Origin: Mollicutes bacterium | GTDB taxonomy: Bacteria; Bacillota_I; Bacilli_A; Izemoplasmatales; Izemoplasmataceae | Reading direction: 5' to 3' | Length of the DNA: 64,000 bases | Assembly: GCA_003568315.1 (NCBI GenBank) | Contig: PWYL01000036.1 | Coordinates: 1-64,000 of the forward strand | In this document: one piece after another, positions 46,626 through 52,606 of the stretch | Numbering within the stretch: position 1 is the stretch's first letter | How the letters are laid out: each line of letters starts with the position of its first letter | Program-made: the position numbers and the translations under genes | Notes under the pieces: generated by a model | Database searches by the model: none | Seen by the model: only the letters and a program-made list of their open reading frames with translations | What the model was told of the DNA's origin: nothing

Positions 46626-46650
46626 AAAAAGAGGCGCTTCCGCACCTCTT
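46626..46650 (-). terminator. Terminator of nrdJ
   Basis: GAGGTGC / GCGCCTC stem with a GGAA loop and TTTTT run on the minus strand, just after the nrdJ stop and directly before the hflX promoter. Confidence 0.8.
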
Positions 46651-49175
46651 CAGAGTCCGCATTTCAACTGGGCGTTGCAGTTGGAACAAGTGTGGCATCC
46701 CCCGAGATTCTCCACCGTTCCCTCGAGGCAGATGGGGCAGAGGTCGCCCTCCTCGATGCCGATGTTCCTATCCTGGCGGTCGGATCTGAGTCCCTTCGTA
46801 CGGGGCTCTTTTTTCTTCTTCACGGATTTTTCCTCGACCTCGAGACCGAGGTCGGCGATTCCGACCTGCTTGGGCTTATGGTCCTTGTCGTCCTTGGTCA
46901 GGGTGAGGACTTGTGCGTCACGAGATCCGTCGACATAGACGGTGCCGCCTTTCGCGCCTCCGTAATACAGGCGGCGGTAGACCCGCTCGACCTCTTCGAC
47001 ACTGTAGCCTTTGGGCGCGTTCACGGTCTTCGATATGGAGGAATCAACCCATTTCTGGATGGTGCATTGCACATCGACATGCTCTTCGGGAGAGAGGTCC
47101 ATGGCGCTCACGAAGATGTCGGGCAGGGATTCCCGGTCGTTACCGGGGTATTTTTCCAGATAGTCGTCGACAATCGGCGCGTTCACCTCGATGAATTTGC
47201 CGAGTCGGCCGCTGCGGAAATAGCTGAAGGCGAAATAGGGCTCGAGGCCCGTCGAGACCCCGACCATGGTGCCGGTGGATCCCGTCGGGGCGATGGTGAG
47301 AAGATGGGAGTTCCGTATACCTTTTTCCAACACGTCCGAGCGGATGTGTTCAGCCATCCGTCGCATGTAGCCGCTATGAGTGAACTTCTTCCGGTTCTCC
47401 TCGGTCTCCAGGAAGGGGAAGGATCCTTTCTCTTCGGCGAGCTGGATACTGTTCTCGTAGGCTTTGGTGGCGATGAAACGGAACAGTTCGTCGATGAAGG
47501 CGAGACCCTCCGGTGAACCGTAGCGATGGTCACACCAGATGAGAAGGTCTTGCAGTCCCATGACACCGAGGCCGATGCGTCTTTCTCCGAGGGCCTGTTG
47601 CCGGTTCTCTTCGAGGAAGTAGTGCGTCTTGTCGATGACATTGTCTTGCAAGCGGATGGCGGTCGCGATGGTCCGTTCGAGTTTGTCGTAGTCGACCTTT
47701 CTCTTTTCATGATCGACCATGTTCGCGAGGTTCAAGGCCGCGAGGTTGCAGACGGAATGCGGGGCCAGGGGCTGTTCTCCGCAAGGGTTCGTGCAGACGA
47801 CCTTCTGGTCGTAGCCGACGGCGTTCGTCTCTTTGTTGGCGTTGTCGATGAAGAAGATGCCGGGCTCCGCGGAATAGGTGGCGCAGATGTTGATCAAATT
47901 CCAGAGGTCTTTGGCTTTGATCGTGTAATGGACTTTGGTGCGTTGCCCCATGGCCTCCCATTCGCGGACGTCGCCTATTTCTTGCCATTTCTCATCGTAG
48001 AAACGTTTTTCGTCGTCGTCGTAGGTGTCGATGTCCGGGAACTTGAGATCGAAGTCCTCCTCTTTTTCGAGAGCTTCCATGAAATCCTTGGAAATGGCTA
48101 CGGAGATGTTCGCGCCGGAGAGGAACTCCTCGTCGTGGACCTCGTAGTGGCCGCCTTTGTTCAACCGTTCGAAAGCCTTGTCGACGATGCGTTTTGAGAA
48201 ATTGCCGTTCTTCTTGGATTGTTCGAGGATGTATTCATTGATCTCTGTCTCTTCTTCGGAAAGGGGGATGAATTTCAGTTTCGCCTGGGCGGTCTTTTTG
48301 ACCAAAGGATCGTCGATGGTGTCGATGAGGAATTGCAGGATTTTCGGGTTCTGCATCTTGGAGACGATGAACTCGATGATGTCGGGATGCCAATCGGCAA
48401 GCATGATCATTTGCGCGCCGCGGCGGGATCCGCCCTGTTCGACGAGGTGCGTCAGCTGTGAGATGTCGTTGAGCCAGCTCACAGCGCCGCTCGATTTTCC
48501 GTTCACGCCTTTGGCCAGAGCGTTCTTCGGCCGGAGTGTCGAGCCGTTGGTGCCCACGCCGCCCCCGCGCGACATGATTTCCATGACCTGTTTCCTGTGG
48601 TCGCTGATGCCCTCGCGGGAATCATGGATGAAGGGCATGACGAAACAGTTGAAATAGGTGACTTGTGTCCGGGAGCCGGCGCCGAAGAGGATGCGCCCCG
48701 CGGGCACGAGATTGAGGTCCTTGACTTCCTGGTAGAAACGTTCTCTGACCTCTTCGCTCTCTTCTTCGCCGAGGTGGTCGGCCACCCGGCGGGCGATCTG
48801 TTCGAAATAGAGTTCGAGGGGTTTGTCGACCTGTTTCCTCGTACGCTCGACAAAGCCGTTCTCGTCGGCATCCTCCGTGTTGGCGAGATAATCGGGGGTG
48901 ACCCGGATTGTGAGTTTGTTGCCGTCGATCCTTTCCACATACCCCACACCCCGGGCGGGGAATTTCGGATCGTCGCGGACAATGGTGAGAACCAGGTCAC
49001 CCTCCTTGAGAGTCTTGAGGTTCAAATCCTTCTGACTGTAGCGGTCCAGCATGACAAGGCGGGAGACTCCGTCGAAGGATTTCTCCATGTCCGCCCGGAT
49101 CGGGCAAAGATGGGGAAAATGTTTCTCGATGTCTTCGTTGATGCTTTCAAGCAAACGTTTGTCATAGTCCGCCAT
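46650..49175 (-). CDS. nrdJ: Adenosylcobalamin-dependent (class II) ribonucleotide reductase
   Basis: 841 residues. It reduces ribonucleotides to deoxyribonucleotides with a B12-derived thiyl radical and works with or without oxygen. Visible: the barrel motif NPCGEQPLAPHSVCNLAALNLANM, TGSTGTMVGVSTGLEPYFAF, and the C-terminal redox cysteines CPICLEGTVENLGGCHTCSNCNAQLKC. GGGVGTNGSTLRPKNALAKGVNG corresponds to the conserved substrate-binding region. No ATP-cone is seen at the N-terminus, so overall activity control by dATP is probably absent. It implies cobalamin synthesis or uptake. No cobalamin riboswitch is visible upstream. Confidence 0.95.
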   Translation of the reverse strand: MADYDKRLLESINEDIEKHFPHLCPIRADMEKSFDGVSRLVMLDRYSQKDLNLKTLKEGDLVLTIVRDDPKFPARGVGYVERIDGNKLTIRVTPDYLANTEDADENGFVERTRKQVDKPLELYFEQIARRVADHLGEEESEEVRERFYQEVKDLNLVPAGRILFGAGSRTQVTYFNCFVMPFIHDSREGISDHRKQVMEIMSRGGGVGTNGSTLRPKNALAKGVNGKSSGAVSWLNDISQLTHLVEQGGSRRGAQMIMLADWHPDIIEFIVSKMQNPKILQFLIDTIDDPLVKKTAQAKLKFIPLSEEETEINEYILEQSKKNGNFSKRIVDKAFERLNKGGHYEVHDEEFLSGANISVAISKDFMEALEKEEDFDLKFPDIDTYDDDEKRFYDEKWQEIGDVREWEAMGQRTKVHYTIKAKDLWNLINICATYSAEPGIFFIDNANKETNAVGYDQKVVCTNPCGEQPLAPHSVCNLAALNLANMVDHEKRKVDYDKLERTIATAIRLQDNVIDKTHYFLEENRQQALGERRIGLGVMGLQDLLIWCDHRYGSPEGLAFIDELFRFIATKAYENSIQLAEEKGSFPFLETEENRKKFTHSGYMRRMAEHIRSDVLEKGIRNSHLLTIAPTGSTGTMVGVSTGLEPYFAFSYFRSGRLGKFIEVNAPIVDDYLEKYPGNDRESLPDIFVSAMDLSPEEHVDVQCTIQKWVDSSISKTVNAPKGYSVEEVERVYRRLYYGGAKGGTVYVDGSRDAQVLTLTKDDKDHKPKQVGIADLGLEVEEKSVKKKKEPRTKGLRSDRQDRNIGIEEGDLCPICLEGTVENLGGCHTCSNCNAQLKCGL

Positions 49176-49428: not shown

Positions 49429-50169
49429 ATGGAAGATATTCTCATGATAGCCTTCTTGGTGTATCTGATGGCCATTTTCACGATTCTCGTCCGCACCATG
49501 TTGCACACGATGGTCCTCCGGTTCTTCCGTTATGCCACCGCCGCCATGGTCGTCTATTTTTTTATCAGGCTCATAAGGTTTCCCCTTCCAGGTGACTACG
49601 CCTTTCTCGTTTATTTTCAGGCCGTGGTCATGGTCGGGGTGCTGATGTTGATGTTGCGACAGGAGATTCGAACGCTCCTTGTGCAAATCGGCTTGAAGAG
49701 CGGTCTTTTGGTGACCAATGCCATCGAGGACGATGTCAAGGAGGAAATCCTCCACAGTGTCAGCTATCTCAGCCGCCACAGAATCGGCGCGCTCATCACC
49801 TTCGAACGTTCGGATTCTTTGCAGGAATACATCGACAACGCCTTCGGCATCGAAGCTGTGGTATCGAGCGAACTGGTCTCGAGCATCTTCATCCCCAACA
49901 CCCCTCTGCATGATGGGGCCGTGATCATCAAGGAGAACGTCATCAAATGCGCCGGCGCCTATTTCCCTTCGAGCGACCAGGCCAAGGTGCCGAAATACCT
50001 CGGTTCGAGACACCGGGCGGCCATCGGCATCAGCGAAGCGACGGACTCTTTGACCGTCGTCGTCAGTGAACAGACCGGAGACATCAGCGTCGCCATCGAA
50101 GGGTATCTGGACCAGGACATCAGCCAGGAATCCTTGCTTCTTTATTTAGAGAAATACCTACAGAATTGA
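49429..50169 (+). CDS. cdaA: Diadenylate cyclase CdaA (c-di-AMP synthase)
   Basis: 246 residues. Three N-terminal membrane helices (ILMIAFLVYLMAIFTILV, FRYATAAMVVYFFIRL, FLVYFQAVVMVGVLMLML) anchor a cytoplasmic DAC (DisA_N) domain with the catalytic NTPLHDGAVIIKENVIKCAGAYFP and LGSRHRAAIGISEATDSLTVVVSE (DGA and RHR motifs). It makes c-di-AMP from two ATP; the messenger controls potassium and osmolyte balance. In most Bacillota cdaA is followed by cdaR and glmM. Here neither is present, and a PAS/GGDEF-like membrane protein follows instead. ATG 49429 has AAAGGTGG at 8 bases. Confidence 0.95.
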   Translation: MEDILMIAFLVYLMAIFTILVRTMLHTMVLRFFRYATAAMVVYFFIRLIRFPLPGDYAFLVYFQAVVMVGVLMLMLRQEIRTLLVQIGLKSGLLVTNAIEDDVKEEILHSVSYLSRHRIGALITFERSDSLQEYIDNAFGIEAVVSSELVSSIFIPNTPLHDGAVIIKENVIKCAGAYFPSSDQAKVPKYLGSRHRAAIGISEATDSLTVVVSEQTGDISVAIEGYLDQDISQESLLLYLEKYLQN

Positions 50170-50213
50170 TTGTATCACATTCCCAAGACATTTCCCGGAA
50201 AGGTGCGTCCGCC

Positions 50214-51365
50214 ATGTTCGATTGGTACGAACACAAGTTCATCATCTATCTCGTCTGGCTCGTTCTTGTCGTCCTCAAGAAGTGGCGTACCAAAAAGGGC
50301 GATTTCGACATATTCCTTTTCATCCTCGCCCTGACTTCCTATGTGGTCTTCGCGAGACTCGCCGTTGTCGAGATCGACGAGGTCTACATCGATATCTTGA
50401 CCTATGGCGGTTTCCTCTATACGGTTTTCATGTTCGATGTCAAAATTCTCAGCAAGCGGGACCATTCACGAGAAAAGCTCAAGGAACTCAACAAAACCCA
50501 TGAGGATCTGAAAGACCGTTCCGAACTCTTGCGGCAACGGTTCATCACCATGCTGGACCTCATGGATGACGGTATCGTCTTCCGCACCGATGACAACACG
50601 ATATACGGAACAGAGACTTTCTTGAAACTTTCCGGCCTCTCCGAGCACCAATTCTCATTGGAGGAATTTCTCGAGAGACTCCACCCGGATGACCGTGCGG
50701 CCTACCTCGCCGTACTCGACAAGTGTTCACGTAGAAACCCGAAATACCGTACACATTACCGCATGAAGCGCGGCGCCATCTATGAATGGGTGAAAGAGAC
50801 CGGGACCATCGTCATCCATGAAGGGCGCAAGATGTATATCGCCATTGTGCGCGGCCTCGATGTCCGTCGCTATCCCAAAACCGAGGTCGACCTTCTGAAC
50901 GAGATCAACATCGGTGACGCCCTCGAAGAAGCCTTGCAGCGGTTCAACCGGCGACAAGAGCCCTACGCCCTCGTCTTCTTTGAACTTTCGAACATCAAGA
51001 ACATCAACGAACAGTACGGACGCGACATCGGCGACCTCATGATGGGAAAATTCCTCAACAAGCTCGTCTATCATTTCCTCAAAGACACCGAGGCCATCTT
51101 CCGTCTGAGCGGTATCCGTTTCGCGATGGTCATCACCGACCACCGCAAATTCGAGATGTTGCGGAGGGCCCTCGAAGAGGGAGGGGACCTCGTCAATTTC
51201 ACCATGACCTTCGGTGAATTGAAAGAGAGCGTATATCCCTATTTCGGCATCCAGAACATCGACTACTTCGATGAACCGGTGACAGAGACCATCTCCCGGG
51301 GCCACCGGGCTTTGCGGATCGCGCTCGAGGACCGCACCCCCGAGAACTATTTCATCATCAAATGA
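50214..51365 (+). CDS. Membrane PAS - degenerate GGDEF protein, GdpP-like without DHH domain
   Basis: 384 residues. Three hydrophobic segments (residues 8-22, 32-52, 57-78), a short coiled coil (80-108), a PAS domain with PAC part (111-218: LMDDGIVFRTDDNTIYG, LERLHPDDRAAYL, YEWVKETGTIVIHEGRKMYIAIVRGLD), and a GGDEF-like fold (232-345). The GGDEF loop reads SGIRF (299-303), and the first metal Asp is lost (FFELSNIKNINEQYG), so cyclase activity is unlikely. The order membrane-PAS-degenerate GGDEF is that of the c-di-AMP phosphodiesterase GdpP, but the DHH/DHHA1 domains are missing. It starts 44 bases after cdaA and occupies the position of cdaR. A role in sensing and tuning CdaA is inferred, not shown. 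Confidence 0.75.
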   Translation: MFDWYEHKFIIYLVWLVLVVLKKWRTKKGDFDIFLFILALTSYVVFARLAVVEIDEVYIDILTYGGFLYTVFMFDVKILSKRDHSREKLKELNKTHEDLKDRSELLRQRFITMLDLMDDGIVFRTDDNTIYGTETFLKLSGLSEHQFSLEEFLERLHPDDRAAYLAVLDKCSRRNPKYRTHYRMKRGAIYEWVKETGTIVIHEGRKMYIAIVRGLDVRRYPKTEVDLLNEINIGDALEEALQRFNRRQEPYALVFFELSNIKNINEQYGRDIGDLMMGKFLNKLVYHFLKDTEAIFRLSGIRFAMVITDHRKFEMLRRALEEGGDLVNFTMTFGELKESVYPYFGIQNIDYFDEPVTETISRGHRALRIALEDRTPENYFIIK

Positions 51366-51399: not shown

Positions 51400-51942
51400 A
51401 TGGACAAGAAGTCATTGCGGAAGACCTTTCTGCGCGAAAGGGAAGCGCTGGAGGATCGCATGCACAAGATGCTGAACTTCATGCTCATGGAGAATCTGAA
51501 AGAAGTGCTCGCCGAACACGAGCTGGAGAATGTGGGCGTGTATTATCCCATCAAGAACGAAGTCGACATCCGCTCCCTCAAAGAGCACTACACCCTCTAT
51601 TATCCCCGGATCGAAGGCGACCGTCTGGTCTTCTACAAAGACACCGGAGAATTCGAAAAGGGACCCTTGGGCACAAGAGAGCCCAAGAGTGATGAGGCCA
51701 TCGACAAGGACGGACTGGATGCCGTCATCGTCCCGGGATTGGTCTATGATGACGCACTCTATCGTCTGGGCTACGGCAAAGGCTATTTTGACGATTTCCT
51801 CAGGGACTACAAGGGGCTTTCCGTCGGGGTCTGTTTCGAGAAGTTCCGCATGGAGGCCCTCCCCTCCCGGAGCCATGACATCCCCGTGGACATGCTTGTG
51901 ACCGACAACCAGATTTATGAAAGCAGGCACGATGATGTATAG
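51400..51942 (+). CDS. 5-formyltetrahydrofolate cyclo-ligase
   Basis: 180 residues, MTHFS/YgfA family. ATP-dependent conversion of 5-formyl-THF to 5,10-methenyl-THF, a salvage step that prevents build-up of an inhibitor of GlyA. MDKKSLRKTFLREREAL at the N-terminus, VGVYYPIKNEVDIRSL, and the active-site signature YRLGYGKGYFDDFL are visible. It links to the fhs-folD-glyA set. The end overlaps the start of ispD by about 11 bases. Confidence 0.92.
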   Translation: MDKKSLRKTFLREREALEDRMHKMLNFMLMENLKEVLAEHELENVGVYYPIKNEVDIRSLKEHYTLYYPRIEGDRLVFYKDTGEFEKGPLGTREPKSDEAIDKDGLDAVIVPGLVYDDALYRLGYGKGYFDDFLRDYKGLSVGVCFEKFRMEALPSRSHDIPVDMLVTDNQIYESRHDDV

Positions 51943-52606
51943 CGTTGTCATTCTTGCGGCCGGAGAGGGGAGCCGCATGGAAGATATGAGTGCGAACAAG
52001 GTCCTTTTGAACCTCAACCACAAATCGATCCTCGAACGGGCGATGGAATGGTTCAAAGAGGATGGGCTCTGTGAAGAAATCATCCTCGTGGTCGCCGCCG
52101 CCGACATGGAATACATGCGTGATCATTTCAAGGCCAACGCCTATGTCGAGGGCGGCAAAACGAGAAGGGAAAGCGTCTATGCCGGACTCAAGCACGTGAG
52201 CAGTCCCTATGTCTTCATCCATGACGGAGCGCGGCCCTTCATCGGGAAAGAAGTCATCAAGACCCTTTTGGGGGCCTTGGGTGACACGGGGGCGGCGACG
52301 CCGGCGCTGATTGTCGATGAGACCTTGAAACGTGTGAAGGACGACATCGTCACCGAACATATGGACCGCGAGGGCATCCACCGGATCCAAACGCCTCAGG
52401 CGTTTGAGACGGATCTGATCAGGAAAGCCCACGACGAAGCGGAAAAGAAAGGTTTGGAAGCGACTTGTGACGTGACCATCCTGGAAGAGACGCTGGGTGT
52501 GAAGGCCCGTGTTGTCAAGGGTCATCCCTTCAACATCAAACTCACCCGTGCCGAAGACGTACCCTTGTTGGAGATGATAGCCGATGCAGAGGATTGGACA
52601 AAGTAG
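51932..52606 (+). CDS. ispD: 2-C-methyl-D-erythritol 4-phosphate cytidylyltransferase
   Basis: 224 residues. Third MEP-pathway step, forming CDP-methylerythritol. YSVVILAAGEGSRMEDMSANKVLLNLNHKSIL has the CTP-binding Gly-rich loop, Arg and Lys; FIHDGARPFI and IHRIQTPQAFETDLI are the other signatures. Two adjacent ATG codons (51932 and 51935) are possible; no strong ribosome site is visible, so translation may be coupled to the upstream gene. The C-terminus overlaps ispF by 23 bases. Confidence 0.94.
   Translation: MMYSVVILAAGEGSRMEDMSANKVLLNLNHKSILERAMEWFKEDGLCEEIILVVAAADMEYMRDHFKANAYVEGGKTRRESVYAGLKHVSSPYVFIHDGARPFIGKEVIKTLLGALGDTGAATPALIVDETLKRVKDDIVTEHMDREGIHRIQTPQAFETDLIRKAHDEAEKKGLEATCDVTILEETLGVKARVVKGHPFNIKLTRAEDVPLLEMIADAEDWTK

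Follow-up and report, generated by a model that had tools for sequence, protein, structure and literature searches.

The window, a 64,000-nucleotide stretch of contig PWYL01000036.1 from a Mollicutes bacterium, belongs to a genome of 1.41 Mb in 83 contigs (96.55% complete). It carries a cdaA gene followed on the same strand, after 44 bases (50170-50213), by an open reading frame for a 383-aa protein, which begins with ATG at 50214 and whose stop codon ends at 51365; a TTG at 50166 is an alternative start and would give 399 aa. The named loci nearest to the 383-aa protein are from Candidatus Izimaplasma/Izemoplasmatales and "Mollicutes bacterium" records, a similarity that places the organism in that group. 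The features of the locus are as follows.

49429..50169, +, cdaA, membrane diadenylate cyclase of 246 aa (DAC domain, TIGR00159, DGA/SRHR motifs)
50214..51365, +, PAS-pseudo-GGDEF membrane protein of 383 aa, proposed CdaA regulator (PF00990, PAS_3, orthologues, AF2)
50220..50432, +, three transmembrane helices, residues 3-26, 30-48 and 56-73 (AF2 helices)
50463..50561, +, coiled-coil signalling helix, residues 84-116 (AF2; alignment-conserved S-E-L-L-R-x-R-F-I)
50562..50858, +, PAS domain, residues about 117-215 (PAS_3; invariant residues in 37 orthologues)
50889..51362, +, degenerate GGDEF domain, residues about 226-383 (PF00990; Foldseek match to the DosC GGDEF domain)
51108..51122, +, SGIRF replacing GGDEF, residues 299-303 (direct reading; alignment to canonical GGDEF domains)
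51400..51942, +, fthC, 5-formyltetrahydrofolate cyclo-ligase, the next open reading frame 3' (PF01812 at 6.6e-27; TIGR02727 above cut-off)
51917..52606, +, ispD-like gene, conserved downstream (named from sequence; same-place homologue in most relatives)

The cdaA gene is intact, and the genome encodes no second DAC domain. Its product matches PF02457 (DAC) at 5.9e-39 and the NCBIfam CdaA model (TIGR00159) at 4.2e-54, with a score of 183.5 bits that lies slightly under the 188.8 cut-off; the DGA and SRHR motifs line up with solved CdaA structures, and an N-terminal membrane segment can be read from the sequence. On the opposite strand, and divergent from cdaA, is a gene for a B12-dependent ribonucleotide reductase (46650-49175; NF005991, above cut-off), whose position beside cdaA is conserved across family f1 only.

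The 383-aa protein matches PF00990 at 8.1e-13 and PAS_3 at 8.3e-07 in a Pfam search, which returned no match to DHH (PF01368), DHHA1 (PF02272) or the YbbR repeats (PF07949). An AF2 model built on a 100-row alignment has a mean pLDDT of 90 and orders the parts as three membrane helices, a long helix (84-116), PAS and GGDEF, although with a pTM of 0.51 the relative arrangement of the domains is not well fixed. The nearest solved folds are PAS-GGDEF and GGDEF structures (Foldseek best: PA0861, DosC and DgcZ), with a TM-score of 0.76 on target for the DosC GGDEF domain. The PAS-GGDEF diguanylate cyclases thus share both folds with the 383-aa protein, but their catalytic and metal residues are gone from it. 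Domain search, model and direct reading together confirm the organization described in an earlier sequence-only reading, of cdaA, a 44-base gap, and a protein with three membrane helices, a coiled coil, PAS and a GGDEF fold bearing SGIRF; its further statement that a DHH phosphodiesterase domain is missing also holds, with no DHH in frame.

We compared the locus with those of 41 related genomes in three families (f1, f2 and f3). Full-length orthologues of the 383-aa protein are present in 40/41, the one genome lacking it (G001) being 64% complete and also without a DAC hit; cdaA is present in 33/41, the genomes without it being G001 and all seven of f2. The order cdaA, 383-aa protein, fthC, ispD is found in the window genus and in genera g2, g8 and g15, while in most other f1 and f3 genomes the two genes are separated by one for a carotenoid-desaturase-like FAD protein of 700-780 aa. 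Among the named Izemoplasmatales loci cdaA lies directly upstream in 12 and one gene away in 43, counting among these one locus where two genes intervene. The FAD protein (about 780 aa in L083:7918-10260 and its orthologues), which in the window genus does not separate cdaA from the GGDEF-like gene, has a carotenoid-desaturase-like fold with C-terminal membrane helices; its best Foldseek match is 4rep, and its CrtI-type hits are weak.

The arrangement cdaA, none or one gene, GGDEF-like gene, (fthC), ispD extends from the Izemoplasmatales to families f5, f7, f12, f16, f18 and f22, and is shared by eight families of the class; the sequence-only reading would have been undercut by random neighbours of cdaA in relatives, and the order is instead conserved. 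In the class sample both genes lie close together on one contig in 62 of the 65 genomes with determinable positions. Family f7 encodes divergent 390-406-aa forms after cdaA, with gaps of about 5-17 bases there and in one f18 genome. Longer forms, mostly of 510-540 aa, are encoded in f5, f12, f16, f18 and f22, where they either follow cdaA immediately or come after a short methylglyoxal synthase-like gene inserted there, and stand before fthC/ispD. For some divergent forms Pfam gave no match, and these were recognised by the family profile and position only. We had suspected from hits of about 530 aa that CdaA and the GGDEF-like protein are fused in other families, but the genes are separate, and the extra length is partly a second PAS domain. 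In two named Acholeplasmataceae records (L168 and L169) the order is cdaA, the protein, fthC. A short methylglyoxal synthase-like gene, a name that rests solely on its start (MKIALIAHDKKK), adjoins cdaA and the GGDEF-like gene in several f18 (L224, L226, L229 and L244-L246) and f5 (L219 and L221) loci.

Departures from this arrangement bear on what the protein acts on. The seven f2 genomes keep the GGDEF-like protein next to maf-like and ispD genes and have no DAC domain, so in that family the protein must have a use that does not need CdaA. Three f18 genomes have the GGDEF-like gene with ispD and away from cdaA (G065, whose cdaA is absent from the 12-kb locus and has no listed position; G100, whose locus ends near a contig edge; and G245), and in genus g139 of f12 two examined genomes have cdaA without a GGDEF-like protein. 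Conversely, in genus g5 (G009 and G024) the protein stays with cdaA and no ispD was found at the locus. For the f2 loci L095-L098 and L306-L309 (genus g18), the named relatives include rumen sources.

One rival explanation is that the protein is a sensor for the c-di-AMP pathway, or a more general nucleotide or redox sensor, which signals to a membrane partner other than CdaA; the degenerate pocket would bind a nucleotide, and adjacency to cdaA would reflect a shared regulon. We consider this improbable but credible. Family f2 combines the protein with GdpP-like genes having intact DHH motifs (a DHH motif in each of four genomes examined) and no DAC domain, and the pocket keeps an invariant N265 and, at position 274 of the family alignment, mostly D or N; both are guanine-contacting positions in active cyclases such as PleD. 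The degenerate GGDEF domain of GdpP also has a reported weak ATPase activity (PMC10243994). Against it, wherever cdaA exists it is with few exceptions the first or second gene upstream of the GGDEF-like gene, and the co-divergence of the protein is strongest with CdaA. The partial correlation of divergence over 20 loci is 0.53 with CdaA (bootstrap 0.27-0.75) and 0.09 with each of IspD and FthC, and a three-gene test over 43 loci gives 0.56 with CdaA versus 0.35 with IspD; these correlations, from simple identity distances over overlapping taxa and few loci, are a weak test and supportive only.

The same comparisons weigh on a second explanation, which we rate a shade less probable again, in which the protein works with ispD, ispF, fthC or the carotenoid-desaturase-like protein, and cdaA is a passenger in the cluster. 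The protein does stay with ispD in f2 and in the three f18 genomes, where cdaA is absent or elsewhere, and the intervening FAD protein fits an isoprenoid cluster. The g5 loci with cdaA and no ispD speak against it, as do the near-zero partial co-divergences with IspD and FthC in the four-gene test, though the three-gene value for IspD is 0.35.

Aligned with eight canonical GGDEF domains from the same genome, the 383-aa protein shows ExS where the DxD metal motif would stand and S299 G300 I301 R302 F303 at the place of GGDEF, whereas an active diguanylate cyclase is expected to have GG[DE]EF and the metal-binding Asp; among the 13 PF00990 matches in the genome it is one of the two weakest. All of 76 Izemoplasmatales sequences have G at the second position of the motif and I at the third, and at the fourth most have R, Q or K and a few E or D. 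Among 28 sequences of other families, L or I predominates at the third position, and 14 carry E at the fourth. The catalytic residues are thus lost in every Izemoplasmatales orthologue, and an alternative set of residues is invariant: in 37 orthologues these are D160, Y182, R183, W192 and E195 in the PAS part, and N260, N265, R270, G273, R297, G300 and I301, together with G345, in the GGDEF part. Conservation is highest in the pocket, with a mean pairwise identity of 0.60 for segment 252-280 and 0.65 for segment 295-304, and lowest in the membrane part (0.21). Relative to the closest orthologue, dN/dS is about 0.08 for the 383-aa protein and 0.10 for cdaA, and this low ratio and the conservation of the pocket indicate a maintained pseudo-enzyme and not a decaying one; the ratio and the full-length orthologues in 40/41 relatives also show that the reading frame did not arise by chance. 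That the protein is still an active diguanylate cyclase, as its above-cut-off PF00990 match and the glutamate at the fourth position in half of the orthologues outside the order might suggest, is very unlikely given the isoleucine in 76/76 Izemoplasmatales sequences, the replaced second Asp of DxD, and the predominance of R, Q or K at the fourth position; the degeneracy proposed from the sequence is upheld, and the alignment reveals no active GGDEF residues.

The other familiar protein of this shape is GdpP (YybT), the c-di-AMP phosphodiesterase, which shares with the 383-aa protein the order of membrane helices, PAS and degenerate GGDEF. Unlike GdpP, the 383-aa protein has no DHH/DHHA1 and has three membrane helices where GdpP has two; its matches are to the generic PF00990 and PAS_3, and the GdpP-specific PF24898 (GGDEF) and PF21370 (PAS), both of which the genome's own GdpP matches, are absent from it at E<=1. 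The alignment also shows the two GGDEF domains to have degenerated by different routes. A DHH search of the genome found one gene, for an 811-aa GdpP with PAS_GdpP, GGDEF_GdpP, DHH and DHHA1 domains. This GdpP (L065:2725-5160, on contig C2 of the window genome, G000), in which the DHH motif can be read, carries a C-terminal ribosomal protein L9, a fusion for which an NCBIfam family exists. Descent from a GdpP that shed DHH and DHHA1, one of the two origins entertained in the sequence-only reading, has the shared part order in its favour but is largely refuted by the domain families and by the complete GdpP elsewhere in the genome, and we give it very little weight. The 41 related genomes have no 7TM-7TMR_HD domain of PgpH.

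A different relationship emerges for CdaR. CdaR (YbbR, PF07949) is absent from 41/41 relatives, and among 247 genomes of the class, in which 223 have a DAC domain, 73 have CdaR/YbbR and 80 match the profile of the 383-aa protein, none has both partners (Fisher 5e-16, a value that ignores relatedness). The count of 80 includes four f10 matches at E<=1e-15; the one f10 match examined lies away from cdaA and probably represents a different protein. In a CdaA tree of 99 rows the partner state needs few changes, and grouping the eight families as one clade is not rejected (AU p = 0.67). The exclusion may therefore reflect a single ancient split, and as perhaps one event it is weaker than its count suggests. 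DAC domains with neither partner are found in f9, f17, f20, part of f10, and f12 genus g139. In f9 loci (L234, L235 and L289-L292) cdaA is directly beside glmM with no cdaR, and in f10 loci (L242, L299 and L301) an 80-aa gene lies between cdaA and glmM, again with no cdaR.

Where CdaR is present, most of the families read have the order cdaA-cdaR-glmM, with cdaR named by position, length and YbbR hits. CdaR and GlmM are described in PMC8573169 and PMC10243994 as encoded with cdaA and forming a complex with CdaA, with CdaR contacting the membrane region of CdaA and GlmM blocking active CdaA oligomers. The 383-aa protein lies directly after cdaA and, in the families inspected, is like CdaR in being membrane-anchored and in occupying the same place in the gene order. 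The two differ in build: CdaR crosses the membrane once, carries its YbbR domains outside the cytoplasm (PMC10243994) and is followed by glmM, whereas the 383-aa protein has three helices, cytoplasmic-type PAS and GGDEF domains and no YbbR match, and is followed by fthC/ispD. GlmM, a CdaA regulator of the canonical cdaA operon (PMC8573169), is a soluble enzyme, unlike the 383-aa protein. We considered GlmM as the missing partner and rejected it: many of the genomes encode GlmM-like proteins, most of them scoring below cut-off, and in the loci read no such gene adjoins cdaA; in the window genome the GlmM-like gene is unlinked to cdaA, and its product scores 420 bits, below the NCBIfam cut-off of 447.6. 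The c-di-AMP riboswitch RF00379 was found only in G034 and G038, and is therefore of no help for the window genome.

We propose, with a probability of roughly one half, that the 383-aa protein stands in for CdaR as a PAS sensor in the membrane, with its pseudo-GGDEF domain tuning CdaA. This reading draws on the placement of known CdaA regulators next to cdaA and the contact of CdaR with the membrane region, and on the conserved neighbourhood, the non-overlap with CdaR, the loss of catalysis with an invariant pocket, the low dN/dS, and the co-divergence with CdaA; it is weakened by f2 having no DAC domain, by the unlinked f18 genomes, by g139, by the lineages (f9, f17 and f20) that have a DAC domain and neither partner, by the chance that the exclusion is a single split, and by the weakness of the correlations. 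Of the earlier suggestion of a sensor in place of CdaR, the replacement part gains support from a neighbour conserved in eight families, by CdaR in 0/41 relatives and by no overlap in 247 genomes, but action on CdaA through the membrane is something we infer. The mechanism is modelled on CdaR and GlmM, and every step beyond the two genes being encoded together is conditional. By this analogy the protein would bind CdaA and alter its activity. It would likely dimerize through the coiled coil and contact CdaA most likely by its membrane helices, its coiled coil, or both; input to the PAS domain would change the CdaA dimer assembly, shifting CdaA between inactive and active assemblies. The GGDEF domain, lacking catalytic residues, would act as an output module or a nucleotide sensor in adjusting CdaA activity, and its conserved pocket may bind a ligand.

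No description of a cdaA and PAS-pseudo-GGDEF pairing was found in the portions of the open-access literature searched, where papers on CdaR, GGDEF and degenerate GGDEF domains were judged by title and the opening of the abstract, and open-access searches for cdaA with Acholeplasma, c-di-AMP with Izemoplasma, and GGDEF and c-di-AMP with Acholeplasma found nothing. How CdaR regulates CdaA is called unclear in PMC8573169 and PMC10243994. More tentatively, and with odds that we would put below even, the protein could represent a second, non-homologous kind of CdaA regulator, which in a single large branch of the class replaced CdaR and makes c-di-AMP synthesis respond to an internal cue sensed by PAS and perhaps to a guanine nucleotide. 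If the proposal is true, a conserved partner with PAS and GGDEF domains would offer lineages that lack CdaR an input to c-di-AMP control that can be tested, and would link c-di-AMP with the protein folds of c-di-GMP.
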